Source of the DNA: Craterostigma plantagineum
Taxonomy: Eukaryota > Streptophyta > Magnoliopsida > Lamiales > Linderniaceae
DNA length: 64,000 nt
Reading direction: 5' to 3'
NCBI GenBank assembly: GCA_027422505.1
Contig: JAPQWV010000012.1
Coordinates: 24,629,501 to 24,693,500, forward strand
In this document: positions 6,662 through 51,501 of the stretch, piece by piece
Numbering within the stretch: the stretch's first letter is position 1
Layout: each line of letters begins with the position of its first letter
The notes under the pieces: model-generated
Seen by the model: the letters and a program-made list of their open reading frames with translations, nothing else
Databases searched by the model: none
What the model was told of the DNA's origin: nothing
Translations under genes and position numbers: made by a program

Positions 6662-9600
6662 TAGGGGTGGGCATTCGGTACGTACCGAACCGTACCGAAC
6701 CAAAGTTTCGGTTAACCGAACTGAAATTTTTCATTTTTTTAAAACCGAATACCGAACCGAATTAGTCAGTTCGGTATTCGGTTTTACCGAATTAAATACG
6801 GTTATCTCGGTTTTACCGAATGGTTAACCGAAATTAAACTAAAAAAATTCCACTTACAGTGAAGAAACCATCTGTCATACATCAAAGGTGTTTTGGTTTT
6901 TGCCAACCACACAAAACATAACCCAAAAAGATCACAACTACTACCATCGGATCAAAAAACTGTGCTGAAATCACAATTGTCATTCACTGCCAGTGCCAAT
7001 CAAAATTCAAAACACCTTTCTTCTTTACTCACTCGAACAGAACAGCAACTGCAATTTACAAGAAGAGGTTTATTACAAATATTAACCAAAACGAAGTATA
7101 GACTATTATTGAAAAACCAACCTTGAAAAATGGTCACAGCCCGATGATTGTCGACTCCAAGCCAATCTCTGAACACATATATATAATACTCATATATGAT
7201 ACTGACCAGAACATCGCAACACATTAATAGAAACTATACCACGAATAAATAAAATAGTAAAAAGAAAGTGAAAATATACCATTTTCATATTTCTGAAGTA
7301 ATTCATAGTCCTCTTCCACATTCTTGAGTGGCGTCCTACGAAGCCAATCTTCACAACATATTAAAGCTTGTGCCATTTTAGGTGTCAAAGAAACTCTAAA
7401 GTCATCGATAACTCGACCTCCGGTGCTGAAAGCAGATTTGGAAGCTACCGTAGTTATAGGCATAGCTAGTACATCACGAGCCAACCTCGATAAAATAGAA
7501 AATCTCGGAGCAAGCATTTTCCACCATTCACTTATATCCAAATCTTCAATGTATTTTTCGATATGTTCGCTTAGATATACATCTACCTCAGATTGATCTA
7601 AGCCGCCACTTTCATGCATCATTTGTAGAAATCTCTTACGATGACCTCTTACCACCCTTCTTGCAACTTCGGTTTCATTTTCTAGATTGGATCCACTCGG
7701 ATTTGTACTTCCTTCAGATGATACTGAAGAAAATGCTTTTTTGTAATCAAAGATTTCATAAAGAGCGTCCTTTGCAATATTTGTCATCACCTCTCCACGT
7801 TCATCGCCATACATATTCTTGAGGACATATTGAAGCATCGTCATGAACAAGTCGTGACTCACACTCCATTCTTTTAACAAGTCATCGACATCGGCAATTT
7901 CATCAAATAATGTGTTCGACGTAACGTACAAAGAACCTGAAATTCGAAGAGTAACAAGTCATTAATATCAACAATTTTATCAACTAGCATTCAACGTTAT
8001 GTATAACGAACCTGAGATTCGAAGAGTGAGCTCGTAGAAATGCCGTAACACTTTCACCAACCGGTCAACAACAGCCCAATCATGTCTATCGGGCATACCT
8101 ATCTTACCATATGCTCCATCAGGCATAAAATCAGCTCGAAAATCAGCATCAGAAATGTTATACCTATCAAAAACTCCTTGATAACAAAGAGATGTCTCTA
8201 GCATTGTGAACACAGAATTCCATCTAGTTGGAACATCCAGACATAAGCATTTTTTAGTCTCAATTATTTCCTCAACTGCAAACTCATTAAATTTCTTCAA
8301 TCTAGATGGTGATTGTCTCACATATCTGACTACTGTACGAACACGCTCGACGGAATGATTCGCTTCCTTAAATCCATCTTTAACAACAAGATTAACAATG
8401 TGAGCCACGCATCTCATATGTAGATACTTCCCACCACATATAGCCGTCTTCCAACTAACAACTCATCTCTTCAGATAACCCACAGTTGTATCATTTGAAG
8501 ACGCGTTATCAACCGTAATCGTGAAAACCTTGTCAATTCCCCAATCAAGCAAGCATTTCTCAATCAACAACCCAACCTTCTCACCTTTATGTGTCAGACA
8601 TGGAATGAAATTGAGGATTGTTTTGTGCAATTTCCAATCACTATCAATATAATGACCGGTCAAGCACAAGTAGTTCAGCCGTTGGTTTGACGTCCATGTA
8701 TCGGTTGTGATTGAGATTTTTTGTCCACTTGTTCAAAAAAAAGTCTTTAACTTCTCTTCTTCTTCAAAGTAAAGCTTGTAGCAATCTCTTGTAATGGTTT
8801 TCCTTGATGACACGAGGAATTGTGGACAAGAAAGTGATACAAAACGCCGAAATCCTTCATTTTCCACGAAGTTGAATGGTAGCTCATAAACGATAATCAT
8901 TCGAGCTAAGCCATTCCTAATGGCTTCTTGATCAAATTTCCATGTAGAAGTTCTAGCTTCTCCCGGTCCACTCTGACAATACGCTGCCATATAGTATGCG
9001 TATCTCCAACATTTTCGGGATTATTCTTGCAAGCTTTCATGTGATTTTTCATTCCCGAAGTTCCATTTTTAGATGATTCAGCAGCATAATTCCTATCCCA
9101 ATACTTACATTTGGCTCTCCGTTTTCCATCTTTGCCGGTGTATAAAACAAAATGATCCCAGACTAGAGACCTTCTAGGCATTTCTTTGCTCTTAGATCTT
9201 TCAATTTGTTCTTCTCTGCCAGAAATCTCAGCTCCTTCTGTGATACTTTCAGGTGGGGTCGAGGATGACATATTCGAACTTTGAAGTGGACCAAGTGTCT
9301 GTGTCTGTCCTCCTTTACTATCCATCCCTAAAAATCATGAACATACAAGATTACATAAAGAGACTTGATGACCTCACGAACTTAAAGGAAGGAGAGACTT
9401 GATGAAATGACGAACTTAAAGGAAGGAAAGATGACGCGATGAGGACAGATTTTGAGATGGAGTTTATACCTTTTTCAATGACGCAATGACGGGCAGATTT
9501 TGAGATGGATGCCTTCTTCGATCTTGACTCTTGAGTTCTTGACGAGTTTAGGGTTTTAACTTTTAAGTGTGATTTCAAATTGGGATTTTGAAGTAAAAGG

Positions 9601-14866: not shown

Positions 14867-15958
14867 ATGGAAGTCGTGAATTCAACTAATCCCGAAAACA
14901 AAATCTGGAATGTCGGGCTTCTGCTTGTAGCCACCCTTGTGGCTGCAAAGCTTATTGTTGTTTTGATTATGCCCAGGTCTAAAAAGAGAATGCCTCCCAC
15001 AATCAGTACATGGCCTGTGTTTGGTGGCTTGGTAAGGTTCATGAAAGGGCCCATAGTGATGCTGAGAGAGGAGTATCCCAAACTCGGGAGCGTGTTCACT
15101 TTGAAATTGCTCAACAAGAACATCACTTTCTTGATTGGCCCTGAAGTTTCGGCTCATTTCTTTAAGGCCCCTGAGGCCGATCTCAGCCAGCAAGAGGTGT
15201 ACCAATTCAATGTGCCTACATTTGGGCCTGGGGTGGTGTTTGACGTTGACTACAGCATCAGGCAGGAACAATTCAGGTTTTTCAGTGAAGCACTTAGGGT
15301 CACTAAGCTTAAAGGATATGTTGATATGATGGTTACGGAGACGGAGGTACGATGAATATGCTTTTGCTTATTTTAGTTTGTATTTTCGTTTCTCTGTATA
15401 ATCTGCATTCACTTTCTTCCTTGTGTGTATTGTCAGGAATATTTTTCAAAATGGGGAGACAGTGGTGAGGTTGACCTGAAAGATGAGCTCGAACACCTAA
15501 TCATACTAACAGCCAGTCGATGCTTGTTAGGCGAAGAGGTTCGCAACAAACTCTTTACCGATGTGTCGGCCCTCTTCCACGACCTCGACAATGGAATGCT
15601 CCCCATAAGCGTAATCTTTCCTTACCTCCCAATCCCAGCACACAAACGTCGAGACCAAGCTCGCAAGAAACTTGCTGACATCTTTGCAAACATCATAGCA
15701 TCTCGCAAGCAGATGGGCAAATCTGAGAATGATTTACTGCAGTGCTTCATCAATTCCAAGTACAAGGATGGACGCTCCACTACAGAGGCTGAAATCACAG
15801 GCTTACTCATTGCAGCGCTCTTCGCCGGGCAGCACACGAGTTCAATCACCTCTACATGGACTGGTGCTTACCTCCTATGCAACCCGAAGTACATGGCTTC
15901 TGTTTTGGACGAGCAAAAGAATGTGGTGCAAAAGCACGGCAACAAAGTGGATTATGAC
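14867..15958 (+). pseudogene. CYP51G1: Sterol 14-alpha-demethylase CYP51 (obtusifoliol demethylase), 5' two-thirds
   Basis: Exon 1 (14,867-15,346, 160 codons) gives an N-terminal membrane anchor, the PPTISTWPVFGGL proline hinge and the CYP51 N-terminal region. Exon 2 starts at 15,437 after a GT-AG intron, in phase 0. It contains the I-helix AGQHTSSITSTW with the CYP51-type His-Thr pair. CYP51 removes the 14-alpha-methyl group of obtusifoliol in the ER, an essential step of plant sterol synthesis. The frame is open without defects to codon 334 (GAT TAT GAC), where an 8.5-kb insertion begins. The remainder resumes in frame at 24,476. The product cannot be made unless the insertion is removed from DNA or RNA. 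Confidence 0.93.
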
Positions 15959-17061
15959 CATGGTTCGCCGTCGCGGCGTTAACTCGGCCGTATCGCCCGC
16001 TCCGTAACGGGATCGCCGCCGGCCGCGCCAAAGATACGGGTTGGCGCGGTTATGGTCTTGCCGCGGCTAGATCTCGGACGTAGCGGTGAGATCTCGGCCG
16101 GGTCGGGACGGAGCGGACGATATATCGGTGTAACGTCCGAAATATCGGCGATTCGATCTCACTTTTTTTTCTTCTGCAACTTACCTCCATTGATGAACTG
16201 ATAAGCTTAGAATAGAAGACAGGCGGCGGCATTAGGTTAGATAAAGCCGATGGAGTGTTTTTCAATTTTAGACATTGGGCTGTTAACTAATATCATGGTT
16301 ACAAAGGCCCAATTGTTAATCAAACAATTACAAATTACTGAAAATAAAAAAATTCTCAAGCATGTAAAATTTATTGATAACTTTTTAACTAAATCTAATG
16401 ACATGAGTTAAATATACTAGCAGAAAATCTAAATATAATATGTATAATCTTGTGATATTGAAACAAATTAGAAGATATTTCACAAACATTATGTATTGTA
16501 ATTGGTAAAACACATATATAAATATATATTATTATTCAAACGTTATGTATTATAATTGGTAAAAACACATATATAAATATATGTTATTATTATTTACATA
16601 ATATGTATAATCTTGTGATATTGAAACAAATTAGAAGATATTTCACAAACATTATGTATTGTAATTGGTAAAACACATATATCAATATATATTATTATTA
16701 TTCAAACATTATGTATTATAATTGGTAAAACACATATATAAATATATGTTATTATTATTTACATAATATGTATAATCTTGTAGAAGATATTTCACAAACA
16801 TTATGTATTGTAATTGGTAAAACACATATATAAATATATATTATTATTCAAACATTATGTATTATAATTGGTAAAACACATATATAAATATATATTATTA
16901 TTATTATTTAACATTATGTATACTGGTAAACACATATATAAATATATATTATTATTATCTTTGCAAAATTTGCGTATCGCCCGCGACCGATACGCGATAA
17001 TGCAACGTATCTGAATTGCTCGTGTCCGCATCAGCGTCCGCGACCGCTACGGCGAACCATG
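15959..17061. mobile_element. Non-autonomous hAT-like element, copy 1 (CATGG family)
   Basis: 1,103 bp with perfect 11-bp inverted termini CATGGTTCGCC/GGCGAACCATG. GC-rich subterminal zones are dense in GTATCGC/GCGATAC motifs (15,990-16,130 and 16,970-17,060), and the AT-rich core is built of tandem repeats. No coding capacity. Its left flank is the CYP51 duplication; its right flank (GTCATGAT) does not match, so it has been separated from its original partner flank. Confidence 0.8.
16436..16960. repeat. AT-rich tandem repeats in the core of copy 1
   Basis: About three imperfect repeats of a 180-200 bp unit: ATAATATGTATAATCTTG, then ATTAGAAGATATTTCACAAA, then one or two GTAATTGGTAAAACACATAT sub-units ending in TTATTATT. 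The same array recurs inverted at about 17,495-18,030 and again at 23,829-24,365. Confidence 0.85.
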
Positions 17062-17391
17062 GTCATGATACTACTAATATATTGTCTGAAGATACGGGAA
17101 ATGCAAGGTTCTACTATACCTCCGCTACCGCAGCAGCGCGGGCCGCCGCCGCAGAAGCGTGGTCCGCCGCAGCAATTGCTTCTCCCATCAACATGATGGC
17201 GTCCTTGACCTTTTCCTTAGCTATCCTAGATTGCATTAGCATTGTCATGTTCGAATCCTCCACTTCAACCTCCGCCTTCTCAGCAGCTTGTAGCGCACGT
17301 CGCGCAGCGTCCGGGCCGTTCAACGCAGTAGACGCATCGACTATCTTTCCCTTCGCAGCCTCAAACACCGTCGTCGCAATTCCCGAGGCAT
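17062..17391 (-). pseudogene. Captured fragment of an unidentified host gene (exon plus donor site)
   Basis: The minus strand reads an uninterrupted, Ala-rich, probably helical stretch of about 90 residues (for example FEAAKGKIVDASTALNGPDA and KEKVKDAIMLMGEAIAAADH), ending at GCGGAG|GTATAG, a plausible splice donor followed by AT-rich intron-like sequence. If copy 2 and one target duplication are removed, the frame continues directly into the 53 bp at 18,509-18,561 (VVAEKAGAAQELIDAS). It is therefore one host exon, captured as genomic DNA. I do not recognise the parent gene. Confidence 0.65.
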
Positions 17392-18508
17392 CATGGTTCG
17401 CCGTTGCGGTCGCGGACGCTGATGCGGACACGAGCAATTCAGATACGTTGCATTATCGCGTATCGGTCGCGGGCGATACGCAAATTTTGCAAAGATAATA
17501 ATAATATATATTTATATATGTGTTTACCAGTATACATAATGTTAAATAATAATAATAATATATATTTATATATGTGTTTTACCAATTATAATACATAATG
17601 TTTGAATAATAATATATATTTATATATGTGTTTTACCAATTACAATACATAATGTTCGTGAAATATCTTCTAATTTATTTCAATATCACAAGATTATACA
17701 TATTATGTAAATAATAATAACATATATTTATATATGTGTTTTACCAATTATAATACATAATGTTTGAATAATAATATATATTGATATATGTGTTTTACCA
17801 ATTACAATACATAATGTTTGTGAAATATCTTCTAATTTGTTTCAATATCACAAGATTATACATATTATGTAAATAATAATAACATATATTTATATATGTG
17901 TTTTACCAATTATAATACATAACGTTTGAATAATAATAATATATATTTATATATGTGTTTTACCAATTACAATACATAATGTTTGTGAAATATCTTCTAA
18001 TTTGTTTCAATATCACAAGATTATACATATTATATTTAGATTTTCTGCTAGTATATTTAACTCATGTCATTAGATTTAGTTAAAAAGTTATCAATAAATT
18101 TTACATGCTTGAGAATTTTTTTATTTTCAGTAATTTGTAATTGTTTGATTAACAATTGGGCCTTTGTAACCATGATATTAGTTAACAGCCCAATGTCTAA
18201 AATTGAAAAACACTCCATCGGCTTTATCTAACCTAACGCCGCCGCCTGTCTTCTATTCTAAGCTTATCAGTTCATCAATGGAGGTAAGTTGCAGAAGAAA
18301 AAAAAGTGAGATCGAATCGCCGATATTTCGGACGTTACACCGATAATCGTCCGCTCCGTCCCGACCCGGCCGAGATCTCACCGCTACGTCCGAGATCTAG
18401 CCGCGGCAAGACCATAACCGCGCCAACCCGTATCTTTGGCGCGGCCGGCGGCGATCCCGTTACGTAGCGGGCGATACGGCCGAGTTAACGCCGCGACGGC
18501 GAACCATG
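17392..18508. mobile_element. Non-autonomous hAT-like element, copy 2, inverted (CATGG family)
   Basis: 1,117 bp, reverse-complement relative of copy 1 with the same termini. It is flanked by an exact 8-bp duplication CGAGGCAT (17,384-17,391 and 18,509-18,516). This shows an independent insertion into the captured host exon and confirms the 8-bp duplication length of the family. Confidence 0.88.
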
Positions 18509-18561
18509 CGAGGCATCGATCAATTCCTGGGCCGCGCCTGCCTTCTCGGCCACAACACGAG
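18509..18561 (-). pseudogene. Second piece of the captured host exon (mirror at 23,298-23,350)
   Basis: 53 bp that read VVAEKAGAAQELIDAS on the minus strand and join in frame to 17,062-17,391 once transposon copy 2 is removed. The other side meets a further CATGG terminus at 18,562. Confidence 0.6.
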
Positions 18562-18798
18562 CATGGTTCGCCGTCGCGGATGCGGACATCGATGCGGACA
18601 CGAGCGATACGGATACTTTGCATTATCGCGGCGCGGTCGCGGGCGATACGCAATTTTTGTAAAAGAATGTGTAAATTATATAAGTTTTCTGCAATTATAC
18701 TAGATAATATTTGTGAAAACGCAAAATATACATGATAAAGCTACATTACATATATTACAAAGTTTTCTATGGTTATTTATTCGATAAAGAGAATAACC

Positions 18799-20917
18799 AA
18801 TCCGTGATCCGTGATCCTCATGGTAAGCAACACTTTTTCAAGACTCCTAGAAACTTCATCTTCAGTTTTCCCATTGATCATCAGAATCTGACCTTTAGGC
18901 TCTGTTAAGAAGGGTGACAAACTTGCATTGTATGAGAAGCATTCCATGAATGGTGATAAAGCGGATATAAAGACATCTATTCCAGCAGCTATATTTTAGA
19001 GGTGAAAGGATAAGCAGGGAACTAAAGAGATACAAAAAAAGTAAGATTAAACATGGGCAGACCTACCGGGAGAAATAAAATTACAAGAAACAGCGATTTG
19101 TATAGCAGTGCTCTGCTTGTCTCCAGTCAGCATCCAAAAATTTATTCCTGCTCTTCTAAGTGTTTCAATCGTTTCTGGAACATCGTCCTGGTTTTGTTAT
19201 CCAAGTGGTGAGAATATATTCAAACATCTCAACATTAAGAGATTCAAATCAAACATGAAATTGAAAAATATATACACATTGCAGCCAGACTTCCTTAGAA
19301 ATGTCTAACAACTAAAACAAACCTGTAGACGATCTTCAATTGCGGCAACACCAAGAATCTCAAAGTCAGCTCTATCCTTTGACAAACTTCAGCTACTCGC
19401 CACTAGAAGTCAGTAAAGCAAATTATTATATTTCTACATTGAAACAACAAGACTCTCAAAGCCTTGCTCTGTCCTTCGACGAACTTGAGCTACTCTCCCA
19501 CTTGAGAATTATATCTACCAAACAGGAAAAAAAAAACCCAACCACAGCAGAGGATTTTTGTGGTCTGTCTAATAAGTGCTAACACCACGTTTATAAATTG
19601 TTTCAAAGAGTTTATTCGTCAGAGCAGATAAGTACTGAAGAAAAATAGTTGTTTAGAGATCTTGAAATATCAAATATTTGTCTTGATCCTTTTGTTGGCA
19701 TTCTTAACATGCTCTTAAGTCGACAGGATATATTACTAAAAATAAACTCTTAGATTCATCAAATGCCTTTTACGAAAGAACCAGATCTCACATAGTATAA
19801 ACTTGTAACTCGTCAGTGGAGCTAAATACTCTGATATGTAACGACAAGGCCAGAAAAAACTAAATTACCTCACGATCAACTAACATACTATTGGCCTCCT
19901 TAAACAGCAATGCCCAATCTTGATATTCATCCTCATCTAATTCACGCCAAGCCAGGCATAGTGTCCGCAGGCCCAGTTGAGCATATTGTTCGACAGCTTC
20001 AGCAAAGATCCTTGTTTGTTGACCTGAAACACAATTACACAGGTCATGTTTCGATATTACAACAAGATATATGAACACTGGATCTGGAATGATTACCCTT
20101 CTATAAATTCTTATTATCAACACTTATACTCAATGATGGACGAAAGAACAACAAAATACCAAAGATTTTATTGACGGAATGTACTACACTACATTTAACC
20201 AGATCGCATCAAGCTTAATGTGTCCGCATAAGAATCACTTATAAACATCACGAGTAGTCTTTTGCTAGATCAAAGTCAACAGTCCAGAGAAGTAGAAGGG
20301 ATCACTTTCAGAAGGTCCTTCACGAAGGAAATTATATATAAGAATAAACTTTACCATTACAAACATAAGGCAGGATGGCTTCATCTGCTCCCTTTGACAA
20401 TAGGAGGACTTTGCCACTATGACATTCCTTAACTATCACAGACATTCTTTTCCTGTCAGAAGTGAATTCAAGAATGTCCAGCACTTCAAATTGCACAATG
20501 AACCATTGAAATTCACATCTGCATACCAGAAAAGTACATGATTGTGGGAGAAAGAAAGTACCAATATTGAATCCCAGATAAGGCAAGCTTACCATTAATT
20601 TTTCCATTCTTACTGAGAAGAACCATATCTAAACGTGCAGCACCACGTACTAGAGCTTCTTCATCTTGAGACTGTGCTTTATATGAAATTATCCCGTTTT
20701 TGCTGCATAATTGAAAAAAGATCCTCAAATGAGCTACCGAGAGCAGAAAAGCATCATGATCGTCTCTATTCACTCATAGATACGGTCGGCGGAACTAGTC
20801 ATTACCTTCGGACTGGGATTACAGTGTTGCATAATGCCATGACCTTGAGAAATAGAATTACATCGGTTGAATTGCTGGACACGGCATTAAGAAGTTCTGC
20901 ATCTGCATAGTACGGAA
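18799..20917 (-). pseudogene. ALA2: Captured ALA2-like phospholipid flippase (P4-ATPase) fragment, left copy
   Basis: Mirror of the right copy. Minus-strand exons read the nucleotide-binding and hinge region of plant aminophospholipid ATPase 2: [81 protein letters not shown] and CNFISP. Introns with GT/AG ends are retained, so capture was from genomic DNA. The N-terminal membrane segments, the DKTGT phosphorylation site and the C-terminal membrane domain are absent. Frameshifts are present (see right copy). No promoter or start codon of the parent gene is included. Confidence 0.9.
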
Positions 20918-20941
20918 TATTACTCTGGTCATTATTCTTTT

Positions 20942-23060
20942 TTCCGTACTATGCAGATGCAGAACTTCTTAATGCCGTGTCCAGCAATTCAACCGATGTA
21001 ATTCTATTTCTCAAGGTCATGGCATTATGCAACACTGTAATCCCAGTCCGAAGGTAATGACTAGTTCCGCCGACCGTATCTATGAGTGAATAGAGACGAT
21101 CATGATGCTTTTCTGCTCTCGGTAGCTCATTTGAGGATCTTTTTTCAATTATGCAGCAAAAACGGGATAATTTCATATAAAGCACAGTCTCAAGATGAAG
21201 AAGCTCTAGTACGTGGTGCTGCACGTTTAGATATGGTTCTTCTCAGTAAGAATGGAAAAATTAATGGTAAGCTTGCCTTATCTGGGATTCAATATTGGTA
21301 CTTTCTTTCTCCCACAATCATGTACTTTTCTGGTATGCAGATGTGAATTTCAATGGTTCATTGTGCAATTTGAAGTGCTGGACATTCTTGAATTCACTTC
21401 TGACAGGAAAAGAATGTCTGTGATAGTTAAGGAATGTCATAGTGGCAAAGTCCTCCTATTGTCAAAGGGAGCAGATGAAGCCATCCTGCCTTATGTTTGT
21501 AATGGTAAAGTTTATTCTTATATATAATTTCCTTCGTGAAGGACCTTCTGAAAGTGATCCCTTCTACTTCTCTGGACTGTTGACTTTGATCTAGCAAAAG
21601 ACTACTCGTGATGTTTATAAGTGATTCTTATGCGGACACATTAAGCTTGATGCGATCTGGTTAAATGTAGTGTAGTACATTCCGTCAATAAAATCTTTGG
21701 TATTTTGTTGTTCTTTCGTCCATCATTGAGTATAAGTGTTGATAATAAGAATTTATAGAAGGGTAATCATTCCAGATCCAGTGTTCATATATCTTGTTGT
21801 AATATCGAAACATGACCTGTGTAATTGTGTTTCAGGTCAACAAACAAGGATCTTTGCTGAAGCTGTCGAACAATATGCTCAACTGGGCCTGCGGACACTA
21901 TGCCTGGCTTGGCGTGAATTAGATGAGGATGAATATCAAGATTGGGCATTGCTGTTTAAGGAGGCCAATAGTATGTTAGTTGATCGTGAGGTAATTTAGT
22001 TTTTTCTGGCCTTGTCGTTACATATCAGAGTATTTAGCTCCACTGACGAGTTACAAGTTTATACTATGTGAGATCTGGTTCTTTCGTAAAAGGCATTTGA
22101 TGAATCTAAGAGTTTATTTTTAGTAATATATCCTGTCGACTTAAGAGCATGTTAAGAATGCCAACAAAAGGATCAAGACAAATATTTGATATTTCAAGAT
22201 CTCTAAACAACTATTTTTCTTCAGTACTTATCTGCTCTGACGAATAAACTCTTTGAAACAATTTATAAACGTGGTGTTAGCACTTATTAGACAGACCACA
22301 AAAATCCTCTGCTGTGGTTGGGTTTTTTTTTTCCTGTTTGGTAGATATAATTCTCAAGTGGGAGAGTAGCTCAAGTTCGTCGAAGGACAGAGCAAGGCTT
22401 TGAGAGTCTTGTTGTTTCAATGTAGAAATATAATAATTTGCTTTACTGACTTCTAGTGGCGAGTAGCTGAAGTTTGTCAAAGGATAGAGCTGACTTTGAG
22501 ATTCTTGGTGTTGCCGCAATTGAAGATCGTCTACAGGTTTGTTTTAGTTGTTAGACATTTCTAAGGAAGTCTGGCTGCAATGTGTATATATTTTTCAATT
22601 TCATGTTTGATTTGAATCTCTTAATGTTGAGATGTTTGAATATATTCTCACCACTTGGATAACAAAACCAGGACGATGTTCCAGAAACGATTGAAACACT
22701 TAGAAGAGCAGGAATAAATTTTTGGATGCTGACTGGAGACAAGCAGAGCACTGCTATACAAATCGCTGTTTCTTGTAATTTTATTTCTCCCGGTAGGTCT
22801 GCCCATGTTTAATCTTACTTTTTTTGTATCTCTTTAGTTCCCTGCTTATCCTTTCACCTCTAAAATATAGCTGCTGGAATAGATGTCTTTATATCCGCTT
22901 TATCACCATTCATGGAATGCTTCTCATACAATGCAAGTTTGTCACCCTTCTTAACAGAGCCTAAAGGTCAGATTCTGATGATCAATGGGAAAACTGAAGA
23001 TGAAGTTTCTAGGAGTCTTGAAAAAGTGTTGCTTACCATGAGGATCACGGATCACGGATT
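20942..23060 (+). pseudogene. ALA2: Captured ALA2-like phospholipid flippase (P4-ATPase) fragment, right copy
   Basis: Sense-strand copy of the same fragment, with about seven exon pieces: 20,949-21,054; about 21,168-21,267; 21,342-21,505; about 21,836-21,990; about 22,457-22,538; about 22,674-22,792; and 22,962-23,060. The parent family flips phospholipids across Golgi and endosome membranes. One-base frame breaks occur in the exon at 21,342 (the frame changes between NFNGS and [10 protein letters not shown]) and in the exon at 22,457 (a base is missing after GAGCTGACTTTG). The fragment is therefore non-coding as a protein but keeps long exact identity for base pairing with the left copy and similarity to the host gene. 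Confidence 0.9.
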
Positions 23061-23350
23061 GGTTATTCTCTTTATCGAATAAATAACCATAGAAAACTTT
23101 GTAATATATGTAATGTAGCTTTATCATGTATATTTTGCGTTTTCACAAATATTATCTAGTATAATTGCAAAAAACTTATATAATTTACACATTCTTTTAC
23201 AAAAATTGCGTATCGCCCGCGACCGCGCCGCGATAATGCAAAGTATCCGTATCGCTCGTGTCCGCATCGATGTCCGCATCCGCGACGGCGAACCATGCTC
23301 GTGTTGTGGCCGAGAAGGCAGGCGCGGCCCAGGAATTGATCGATGCCTCG

Positions 23351-24467
23351 CATGGTTCGCCGTCGCGGCGTTAACTCGGCCGTATCGCCCGCTACGTAAC
23401 GGGATCGCCGCCGGCCGCGCCAAAGATACGGGTTGGCGCGGTTATGGTCTTGCCGCGGCTAGATCTCGGACGTAGCGGTGAGATCTCGGCCGGGTCGGGA
23501 CGGAGCGGGCGATTATCGGTGTAACGTCCGAAATATCGGCGATTCGATCTCACTTTTTTTTCTTCTGCAACTTACCTCCATTGATGAACTGATAAGCTTA
23601 GAATAGAAGACAGGCGGCGGCGTTAGGTTAGATAAAGCCGATGGAGTGTTTTTCAATTTTAGACATTGGGCTGTTAACTAATATCATGGTTACAAAGGCC
23701 CAATTGTTAATCAAACAATTACAAATTACTGAAAATAAAAAAATTCTCAAGCATGTAAAATTTATTGATAACTTTTTAACTAAATCTAATGACATGAGTT
23801 AAATATACTAGCAGAAAATCTAAATATAATATGTATAATCTTGTGATATTGAAACAAATTAGAAGATATTTCACAAACATTATGTATTGTAATTGGTAAA
23901 ACACATATATAAATATATATTATTATTATTCAAACGTTATGTATTATAATTGGTAAAACACATATATAAATATATGTTATTATTATTTACATAATATGTA
24001 TAATCTTGTGATATTGAAACAAATTAGAAGATATTTCACAAACATTATGTATTGTAATTGGTAAAACACATATATCAATATATATTATTATTCAAACATT
24101 ATGTATTATAATTGGTAAAACACATATATAAATATATGTTATTATTATTTACATAATATGTATAATCTTGTGATATTGAAATAAATTAGAAGATATTTCA
24201 CGAACATTATGTATTGTAATTGGTAAAACACATATATAAATATATATTATTATTCAAACATTATGTATTATAATTGGTAAAACACATATATAAATATATA
24301 TTATTATTATTATTTAACATTATGTATACTGGTAAACACATATATAAATATATATTATTATTATCTTTGCAAAATTTGCGTATCGCCCGCGACCGATACG
24401 CGATAATGCAACGTATCTGAATTGCTCGTGTCCGCATCAGCGTCCGCGACCGCAACGGCGAACCATG
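23351..24467. mobile_element. Non-autonomous hAT-like element, copy 3 (mirror of copy 2)
   Basis: Exact mirror of 17,392-18,508. Its outer terminus serves as the right end of the whole composite; its inner flank is CGCATGG-ended captured exon sequence (23,298-23,350). Confidence 0.85.
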
Positions 24468-24475
24468 ATTATGAC

Positions 24476-24952
24476 ATCTTGTCTGAAATGGAAGTTCTGT
24501 ACCGATGCATAAAGGAGGCGTTGAGACTCCACCCTCCGTTGATTATGCTCTTGCGAAGCTCGCACAGCGATTTCAGTGTCAAGACAAGAGAAGGGATTGA
24601 GTATGATGTTCCAAAAGGGCACATTGTGGCAACATCGCCTGCTTTTGCTAACAGGCTTCCACACATATTCAAAGATCCCGACGCTTACAATCCCGACAGG
24701 TTTGCTTTGGGGAGGGAGGAGGACAAAGCAGCTGGGGCATTCTCTTACATATCCTTCGGTGGTGGGAGACATGGCTGTTTGGGCGAGCCGTTTGCTTATC
24801 TGCAGATAAAGGCTATATGGAGCCACTTGCTTAGAAACTTTGAGATGGAGCTTCTTTCACCGTTCCCCGAGATTGATTGGAATGCTATGGTTGTGGGAGT
24901 GAAGGGGGAAGTGATGGTACGATACAAGCGTAGGAAGCTTTCCGTCGACTAA
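24476..24952 (+). pseudogene. CYP51G1: Sterol 14-alpha-demethylase CYP51, 3' third
   Basis: This continues codon 335 of the interrupted gene: ILSEMEVLYRC, the K-helix ExxR (KEALRLHP), then the haem-binding loop FGGGRHGCLGE with the thiolate Cys at about residue 435 of the joined reading. It ends in TAA at 24,950-24,952. With the upstream part the protein would be 492 residues, the usual CYP51 length. No stop or frameshift is present on either side, so the gene was intact until very recently. The insertion separates the I-helix from the haem ligand. Confidence 0.93.
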
Positions 24953-49249: not shown

Positions 49250-51501
49250 ATGGATCGTGGTGGTGGCCGACGTGGTTCTCGTGCATCGAGAGCCAGCAAA
49301 GGGAAGCAAGTCGTTGGTAGTTCATCGCAAGATGACTACCAACAATACGATCCGAACGAGTTCTTGGATATCGCCGACGTGCTCGGCGGTGACTTGAACG
49401 AGGAGCCGGCCGGTTTTGAACCATCGCCGGGAGCAAGCTCGCATGCCGCGCAACATATGGAGGTGGAGGAGGATCCGGAGAGCGAAGCGCCTACGCAAAC
49501 CGCCGCCGCCCGGCGGCTACAGTCGGACATCTTCGCGGTACACTTCAAGAAGGTACCTACTAGTATAGTCAACCAATTTAGAGCCATTTGTAACTACTGT
49601 CCCAAGGAATATAATTTTAGAAAGGGAGGCGGATATGGGTCAATGAATTCCCATCTCCGTTCGAAACACCCGAGTAAGTTAGGTGTAGCACAAAACCAAC
49701 AGCAAATGTTCGGAGGTACCGATTCGTCCGCGTCGGGACCCGCCGGCGGGAGCGGAAGCGCAACGTCGTTGTTTCATTACAACGAGGACGTTGCGCGACG
49801 CGAGCTTGCCAAGTTCGTAGCCGCGAAGCATCTACCGTTTCGATTTGCCGATGACCCGATCTACGAGCATTGGATCAAGGCCGCATACAACCCACAGGCG
49901 AAGAAGATTTCGAGGAGCACCTTGACGCGGGATACTAAGAAGACGGTAATTGCGCTTAAGCGCGACTTAGTAGCGATATTAGGTAGTTTAGGAACGTCCG
50001 TGTCGATTTGCTCCGATATATGGAGCGATCATTGGCAACGTTCATCTTACATGGGCGTGACATGCCATTGGGTCGATGATTCGTGGACGATACAAAAGCG
50101 CTTGATCGCATATAGGGAGTTCGATGAAGCGCACACGGCGCAAAACATTGCGATCAAGCTTAGGACGATCTTATCAGAGTATAGGATAGTCAACAAAGTC
50201 TTTTCAGTATCGTTCGACAATGCGAGCGCAAACAACGCGAGCATTGAACGCTTGATCGAGTATTGTCAGCCGTCAGTCGGAGGACGGTTTTTCCACGTGC
50301 GTTGTTTTTGCCACATACTTAACCACTGTGTGCAAGACGCGCTAGCTAGTTTAAAGGACCAGGTGCAGCCTATACGCTACGCAATCTCCTACCTGATGCG
50401 ACACCCGTCTTTGTGGAAGAAGTGGAAGCGTTTCTGCGCTAGAGAGGGTGTAGCAGCCAAGAAGTTTAGTTTAGACGTACCCACCAGGTGGAATTCCACC
50501 TACAAGTTGCTGTACAGTTCTATGGAGTATCGACAGCATCTGTGCGACTTTTTTGCCGAAAACAGAGTATTGTCGTACAATTTACTTCCGGAGATGTGGG
50601 ACCCGTGCAACAGTTTATGTGAGATACTTCAAGTATTTCACGATGCCACCGAGGCGATGTCGGGTTCATATTACCCGACTCCATACTTGCGTTAGATAAT
50701 TGCGTTAAAGTCGCAATCATACTCGACGGGCTTCGGTTTGATCCAGTAGTCGGCGAGGCCATTGGGAGCATGACTACCAAGTGGCTCAAATATTTTTTTG
50801 AGTTACCGGATATCTTCATTATAGCGAAGATATTGGATCCGAGATGGCGTTTAGATGGTACGGGTAGACTACTAGAATGCTACTATACGAAGGTATCGTC
50901 GGGCAGGGTAGTCGATAGCATTTATTGGCAGAGCGTACTCGATCGAGCGCATAGCTCTTTAAAGGATCTCTTTAAAGAGTATAAGCCCGATTTTGGCCAC
51001 GACTCGTCTCGATCGGGATCGGGGCGCAGTCAATCTAGTTCTACTAGTAGTCGATCTTCACGATTAGCTGACTACTACGACATCCTCAACGCAAACAAGC
51101 GTCCAAGGTCCTCCCAAAACCCCTACATAGAAGTCGATAACTTTATGTCGACGACTTTCGAGTTCGAGGACGAAGATGAGTTCAACGTCCTTAGATGGTG
51201 GTCGAGGGTGTCGCCAACGTATCCAACGTTGGCGAGAATCGCTCGGGAGATCCTTGCCGTCCCGGTCTCGACTGTCGCGGTGGAGCATGCTTTTAGCATG
51301 GGCGGTTTGACCTTGAGCGAGAAGCGTTCGAACTTGAGTGTCGACAACCTCGAGTACCAATGTCTTCTCGACGATTGGACTCGAGCCGAGTATCGCACCC
51401 AAGATGAGCGTGCCAGCGACTCGCCCGATGACCTTTTCGAGGACACCACCGGCACGGAGACAAGCGGAGGCAACGGCGGCGACGGCGGCGAGGATTATTA
51501 G
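49250..51501 (+). pseudogene. hAT transposase (zf-BED, RNase H-like core, hATC), single frameshift
   Basis: The frame opens at ATG 49,250. A BED zinc finger sits at residues about 95-140 (ICNYCPKEYNF … HLRSKH, ligands intact). The RNase H-like core follows (SICSDIWSD, VSFDNASANN, SLDVPTRWNSTYK). At about 50,680-50,695 a one-base deletion-like shift closes the frame after YYPTPYLR. The neighbouring frame carries on without other damage from ALDNCVKVAIILD to the hATC dimerisation domain (WWSRVSPTYPTLARIAREIL, VEHAFSMGG) and stops at 51,501. Joined length would be about 750 residues, normal for plant hAT transposases. A single sequencing error could also explain the break. Confidence 0.9.

Follow-up and report, generated by a model that had tools for sequence, protein, structure and literature searches.

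How does a gene come to carry a palindrome of several kilobases within one of its exons? The question is raised by a 64,000-nt stretch of the genome of Craterostigma plantagineum (GenBank assembly GCA_027422505.1, contig JAPQWV010000012.1, here C12, positions 24,629,501 to 24,693,500 of the forward strand), which is called the window in the following. In this window a gene for CYP51, an obtusifoliol/sterol 14alpha-demethylase, is split in its second exon by a composite insertion of 8,509 bp (15959-24467), and the inner part of this insertion is a near-perfect palindrome. The outer ends of the insertion belong to two different transposons, A and B, and direct-ends transposition in the course of replication is tentatively proposed as its origin. 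The searches for further copies were made over the 1.71-Gb genome in one assembly. The features of the locus are listed in Table 1.

Table 1. Features of the split CYP51 gene and of the composite insertion (window numbering).
Feature	Position	Strand	Basis
CYP51 (obtusifoliol/sterol 14alpha-demethylase), exon 1	14867..15346	+	Pfam p450, open reading frame list
CYP51, exon 2, 5' part; final 8 nt ATTATGAC are the target duplication	15437..15958	+	6q2c match
Element A, a non-autonomous hAT-type transposon that adjoins CYP51 with its left end; terminal inverted repeat of 12 bp, CATGGTTCGCCG	15959..17061	+	
F1, part of gene F with GTCATGAT (right-hand duplication of A) at its start and CGAGGCAT (duplication of B) at its end	17062..17391	-	
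Element B in the left arm, in reverse orientation, its right end at 17392	17392..18508	-	
F2, gene F continued; starts with the second CGAGGCAT	18509..18561	-	Empty site in C4153 and C6
Element C (the third element), truncated right end	18562..18791	-	
Left-arm exons and introns of the ALA2-like P4-ATPase	18807..20917	-	
24-nt spacer; continues the left arm natively to ...TTCTTT, then an extra T as novel joint	20918..20941	.	
Right-arm copies of the P4-ATPase piece and of the right end of C	20942..23297	+	Mirror and C961 comparison
F2, mirrored	23298..23350	+	
Element B, right-arm copy; right end adjoins CYP51	23351..24467	+	
CYP51, exon 2, 3' part; initial 8 nt ATTATGAC are the target duplication	24468..24952	+	Pfam p450

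The split CYP51 gene and the two elements at its borders

The three CYP51 pieces matched Pfam p450, and the best solved relative of the 5' part of exon 2 was the obtusifoliol 14alpha-demethylase 6q2c (E 5.9e-52). The 8-bp sequence ATTATGAC is present at both ends of the composite, and removal of the insertion together with one ATTATGAC restores an open exon 2. CYP51 was also found at 13 other places in the genome; six of these match at 93-97%, the other seven at 77-78%. The gene was uninterrupted in all 13 of them, and the matches to the 5' and 3' parts overlapped by 8-9 bp, which is the length of the duplication. The 5' half was found at 100% on C12 alone, and the 3' half together with B on C12 and on a second contig, C961. 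The join between the element and CYP51-3', searched with a query that included the right end of B, was also confined to these two contigs among the best 40 of 712 candidates. A state in which this CYP51 gene carries a simple element was found on no contig in the CYP51 searches (for the 3' query, among the best 40 of 712 candidates).

Elements A and B have a length of about 1.1 kb each and are 97.5% identical. Terminal inverted repeats of hAT transposons are short and have an A at position 2 and a G at position 5. Both bases are found in CATGGTTCGCCG, which is present at both element ends, and the target duplications of the A/B family are 8 bp long (ATTATGAC, GTCATGAT and CGAGGCAT, as well as GGATTATC at a copy on contig C14 and GCTGTAGG at a copy on contig C27). 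Judged by these two sequence features, A and B belong to the hAT superfamily. Exact copies of CATGGTTCGCCG occur eight times in the window, all of them within 15959-24467, and 11 matches were found when up to two mismatches were allowed, versus 2.2 expected. Eight copies, of which that on C27 is partial, were included in an element alignment. All columns that distinguish A from B are B-type in the right-arm B, including the last one, 13 bp from the join to CYP51, and the A of the window is unlike B at all of them, which argues against hybrids generated by recombination or repeat collapse.

A and B lie in inverted orientation, 330 bp apart, at a piece of a gene here called F, for which no Pfam family was matched. 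The piece between them, F1, was found at nine places, i.e., in the window, at the end of C12 (25150621-25150942, 99%), and at seven relatives with 84-95% on C6, C4153, C2505 (two) and C14 (three, each comprising half of F1). The copy of A at the end of C12 is flanked on either side by GTCATGAT, and thus this contig end is the home of A; the sequence that adjoins A there is called Q. In all four paralogous places that contain both Q and F1 (C4153, C6 and twice C2505) the two overlap by exactly 8 bp, and this overlap, on sequence comparison, is the empty site of A with the duplication GTCATGAT. In the window, GTCATGAT is retained on the right side of A only. An uninterrupted succession of F1, a single CGAGGCAT and F2 was found on C4153 and C6, the two contigs of the four that were read at this point, and this continuity is in the same way the empty site of B. 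The right-arm B has kept CGAGGCAT at its left end. Because both elements had ordinary insertions in F, with empty sites in relatives, one end of each appears to have moved together with the other into CYP51, and a two-element transposition, in which ends from A and B were used as a pair, is very probable.

Some further observations concern the elements and their superfamily. AT-rich tandem units, the details of which vary between the copies, are located inside A and B (16400-16960 and mirrored copies). A near-identical copy of the A/B element is present at C14:1036353-1037473 with its own duplication GGATTATC, which indicates that the family moved recently. Two consecutive long open reading frames on the plus strand (49250-51501) encode a BED zinc finger and then a hAT dimerisation domain; they perhaps represent a nearly complete, putative hAT transposase gene. 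A C-terminal fragment of a hAT transposase (Dimer_Tnp_hAT, E 2.4e-26) lies on the minus strand at 7224-7931.

The palindrome and the conflicting contig C961

A repeat search of the window resulted in two arms of 3,528 nt each (17390-20917 and 20942-24469) on both sides of the 24-nt spacer. Base-by-base mirroring of position x with position 41,859-x revealed only two internal mismatches, 18350/23509 and 18689/23170, both of which are transitions. The true transposon termini are at 17392 and 24467, and the two extra nucleotides per arm in the repeat search are due to chance. The palindrome as such is far beyond chance. A first-pass annotation had described its arms with their start at 17392, the spacer and two mismatches, and an outer end that coincides with a transposon terminus and a target duplication. 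All of these were confirmed, the duplication being 8 bp long and present at both CYP51 joins.

The 23 nt of the spacer that adjoin the left arm are native sequence in C961. The joint with the right arm contains about one additional T, and no bases are shared there. Two explanations of this joint were rejected. The spacer is not the continued intron of the right arm with its T-run, because nine other places show the left-arm continuation, and snap-back priming at the fold was discarded because the paired bases fail to account for the number of Ts. At these P4-ATPase places (C961 included) each side of the fold was matched separately.

The sequence on both sides of the fold is derived from a P4-ATPase gene. 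One exon of the arm, searched against solved structures, matched phospholipid flippases of the DRS2 type, which verified the earlier description of intron-bearing, ALA2-like pieces that stand head to head; a single P4-ATPase exon matched no Pfam family. On one side the P4-ATPase part is truncated by the right end of element C (about 230 bp), which was found at 37 other places at 85-96% among the best 40 of 797 candidates. The F2/C/P4-ATPase join was detected at three places only, both arms and C961, again among the best 40 of 797 candidates. On all four other contigs with F1 relatives a P4-ATPase copy is located about 10-40 kb from them, and F and the flippase gene are thus neighbours. Therefore, the F2/C/P4-ATPase join is of the deletion type. 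It had also been claimed that the flippase gene was captured within a transposon, but this was not supported, because the P4-ATPase sequence runs on past the fold point as a longer locus in C961. A Pack-hAT capture of a flippase fragment was rejected for the same reason; C961 is 98.0-99.6% identical to its best paralog, on contig C5183, from C961:98700 on, without a step at the fold. Furthermore, the gene piece is not bounded by both ends of one element, as it would be in a Pack-TYPE element, and the exact 12-bp terminus was not found to the left of the P4-ATPase in C961. P4-ATPase copies were observed on nine other contigs, C961 included, and on C1320, C4153 and C4971 the match reaches the contig end. 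The P4-ATPase appears to be a hard-to-assemble gene family in a polyploid-looking genome.

Contig C961, which was read completely, has a length of 153,908 bp and contains the right arm, B and CYP51-3'. It matches the window from 20942 to the window end, and the BLAST match to C12 continues to 72049 (window numbering), where C961 ends, i.e., over 51 kb at 99.86%. Within the window, 4 substitutions were counted over 43 kb, together with 11 places of insertion or deletion, of which nine lie in base runs; past the window end, the base-by-base comparison was lost at 66758 amid a denser cluster of differences. C961 diverges from C12 exactly at the fold, and its sequence upstream of this point is the longer P4-ATPase locus. 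The part left of the fold point comprises 102.8 kb and had no megablast match of more than 300 bp to 82 kb of C12, and thus A, F1 and CYP51-5' are missing in it. A repeat-bearing query of 2,000 bases from the left arm of C961 was matched in full by C961 only, among the best 40 of 811 candidates. At both sites at which the arms differ, C961 has the base of the right arm. The left arm differs from C961 by only 2 substitutions and 1 insertion/deletion in about 3.55 kb and is therefore unlike single-read sequence. The identity of the arms and C961 is explained by a recent common origin, and the recent origin that had been proposed for the palindrome was judged right. The fold at 20941/20942 is about as likely real as not, since it is contradicted by the one independent contig and the assembly contains a second, doubtful mirror nearby.

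Proposed origin of the composite insertion

For the composite insertion as a whole, direct-ends (sister-chromatid) alternative hAT transposition with re-replication is proposed, with a probability just short of even. At F, the left end of A and the right end of B are directly oriented; these two ends now adjoin the CYP51 halves with one shared 8-bp duplication, which is the configuration of a direct-ends event. The transposase would have taken the left end of A from one sister chromatid and the right end of B from the other, and the pair of ends would have been inserted into CYP51, which is about 0.5 Mb away and would have been still unreplicated. Replication forks coming from the two sides would then have re-copied A-F1-B-F2-C-P4-ATPase and B-F2-C-P4-ATPase, respectively. 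Both copies would have stopped at nearly one point, e.g., at the same stalled fork or at one break on both sisters, and joining of the two broken ends would have generated the fold. That two forks stop within 24 nt would be a coincidence if they were independent, and one stalled fork or an inherited break would remove this coincidence. The palindrome would start at the right end of B because the transposase cut there, and its outer end would then mark this cut and not the chance stop of an inverted duplication.

Such an event predicts an inverted duplication of the segment from CYP51 to F and three joins, i.e., CYP51-5' with A-F1-B-F2-C-P4-ATPase, a chromosome join CYP51-3'/B/F2/C/P4-ATPase/rest, and, in CYP51, the fused pair of re-copied segments. 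Each of these joins is seen in the sequence, the CYP51-5' side and the fused pair in the window, and CYP51-3' onward in C961. The anatomy of a composite insertion, with two segments joined and the element ends outside, is thus seen, albeit with a fold that C961 contradicts. The C961 join and the mirrored end of C12 fit the predicted inverted duplication, but collapse or misassembly would fit as well. A plain inversion by single-chromatid transposition was rejected, because it explains C961 but not the left arm, in which F1 is still joined to B.

The mirrored end of C12 (25149502-25152059) is located about 0.5 Mb downstream of the insertion and contains an element as well as F1 and A, both in reverse orientation. 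The region C12:25141094-25160268 was read in part. The flanks mirror each other over 501 bp with one insertion/deletion, and the last 1,500 bases of C12 are the mirror image of 25141278-25142782, without a mismatch and with 5 gap bases in 1,505. Overall, the contig end has the appearance of a mirrored copy of the preceding 8 kb or so around F1, with an indel-rich tail. The other element there, between Q and F1, is A-type at column 44, A-like at column 623, and B-type at columns 273, 752-754, 874 and 1127, and in the 330 bp of F1 three single bases and one GG are missing and one base is substituted. An inverted duplication would predict such a mirrored segment around F1. Nevertheless, the contig end is weak support for a real one, because an indel-rich tail and a hybrid element are what a mis-overlap of A and B would give. 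The tail is best read as a native Q-A-F1-B read that was placed backwards because A and B are similar; a genuine inverted duplication would give the same picture. That a heritable inverted duplication of about 0.5 Mb (CYP51 to F) is hidden here by collapse, together with a palindromic composite the arms of which end where both forks met one stalled fork and the inverted B copies of which could yield hairpin RNA against their own family, is a rather unlikely extension of the proposal.

Several points weigh against direct-ends transposition with a true fold. C961 has uninterrupted P4-ATPase sequence at the fold point, and the complete fold was found in the window alone when all 10 candidates from the assembly were scored. 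The centre of the C12 end contains an extra element instead of a plain excision join. A 16-nt deletion separates the A of the window from the home A at the contig end, and the two also differ at columns 604 and 676, where the former agrees with B; this difference exceeds that between the two arms. A and B would have to be moved by a putative hAT transposase. Lastly, most of the maize composite insertions sequenced in PMC4270019 have joints with microhomology or homology.

The alternative that survives best, although it is itself doubtful, is that the fold is an artefact of the assembly or the library. Both joins to CYP51 would then be real on rearranged chromosomes or haplotypes, and they would have been closed by a fold-back chimeric read or by a wrong path through identical arms. 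The early warning of an assembly artefact was well founded, as C961 contradicts the fold and C12 ends in a second mirrored stretch, the indel-rich tail of which is best read as one mis-overlapped read. The P4-ATPase matches that run to the ends of three contigs point in the same direction, and artificial palindromes in long reads are a known problem after whole-genome amplification (PMC6218980). However, the two arms differ at two sites, with C961 agreeing with the right arm, and the left arm has fewer irregularities than the tail of the contig. In addition, if a fold-back read were the sole cause, F1 and A would be mirrored, and CYP51-3' with its duplication would not be reached.

It is improbable that a longer palindrome, Q-A-F1-B-F2-C-P4ATPase, was formed first at F by broken sister fusion or fold-back replication, and later moved as an ordinary macrotransposon by the left end of A and the right end of B. 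This would account for the single duplication at a normal left-to-right pair of ends, for the asymmetry of 24 nt and for the limit of the palindrome at the end of B, and macrotransposons with Ac/fAc ends excise and reinsert (PMC9910405). This alternative, however, leaves C961 unexplained, and the fold was found at no other place in the assembly, with 10 of 10 candidates scored. Still more improbable is that a simple element in CYP51 recombined ectopically with A and B at F, or was connected to them by an assembler crossover, with the duplication being that of the simple element: the similarity of A and B, the hybrid element at the contig end and the two columns at which the A of the window agrees with B against the home A would suit it, but two or three separate events would be required, the elements at CYP51-3' and CYP51-5' are B-type to 13 bp from the join and unlike B at all separating columns, respectively, and the simple state was found on no contig in the CYP51 searches (best 40 of 712 candidates for the 3' query).

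Relation to known systems

The kind of event proposed here is already known in maize. Sister-chromatid direct-ends transposition can yield flanking inverted duplications and deletions (PMC3744419), and direct-ends transposition into unreplicated DNA leads to inverted duplications and composite insertions (PMC8225341). With these Ac/Ds cases the Craterostigma locus has in common the use of directly oriented ends of two nearby hAT elements as a pair, the 8-bp target duplication, inverted copies of the element flanks, and a predicted second chromosome join, here that in C961. It differs in that another hAT family in another plant is involved, that it was found in an assembled genome rather than in a screen, and that the donor centre keeps an extra element.

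Composite insertions generated from reversed ends (Zhang et al. 2014, PMC4270019) also have element ends that flank re-copied DNA and two parts joined end to end. There, each fork re-copied 4,781-18,866 bp, versus about 5.0 and about 3.5 kb here, and reversed ends resulted in a direct duplication, whereas here both parts copy the same sequence and thus form a palindrome. The same text reports the composite insertion P1-rr-E311, which likewise has a joint without microhomology, and considers collision with a stalled fork as a cause of termination. Macrotransposons (PMC9910405, PMC3260210) also consist of two elements and the DNA between them and move by the outermost ends; here, in contrast, the interior is palindromic and the ends are not in normal orientation at the presumed home locus. 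Pack-TYPE elements (Pack-TIRs, PMC8277862) share the presence of gene exons between terminal inverted repeats, but here the gene part runs on as a genomic locus in C961 and is not a compact captured piece. No report of the present case was found in literature searches, which is not proof that none exists.

If the fold is an artefact, the locus shows clearly how an assembly can be misled by inverted copies of transposons; the transposition of two elements into CYP51 would not be affected by this. A real fold would make it a natural case outside the maize Ac/Ds screens, in which one aberrant hAT transposition split a gene and built a kilobase palindrome, half a megabase may be rearranged, and home and target sites are both readable. 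The composite would then give precise breakpoints for examining re-replication and fork collision.

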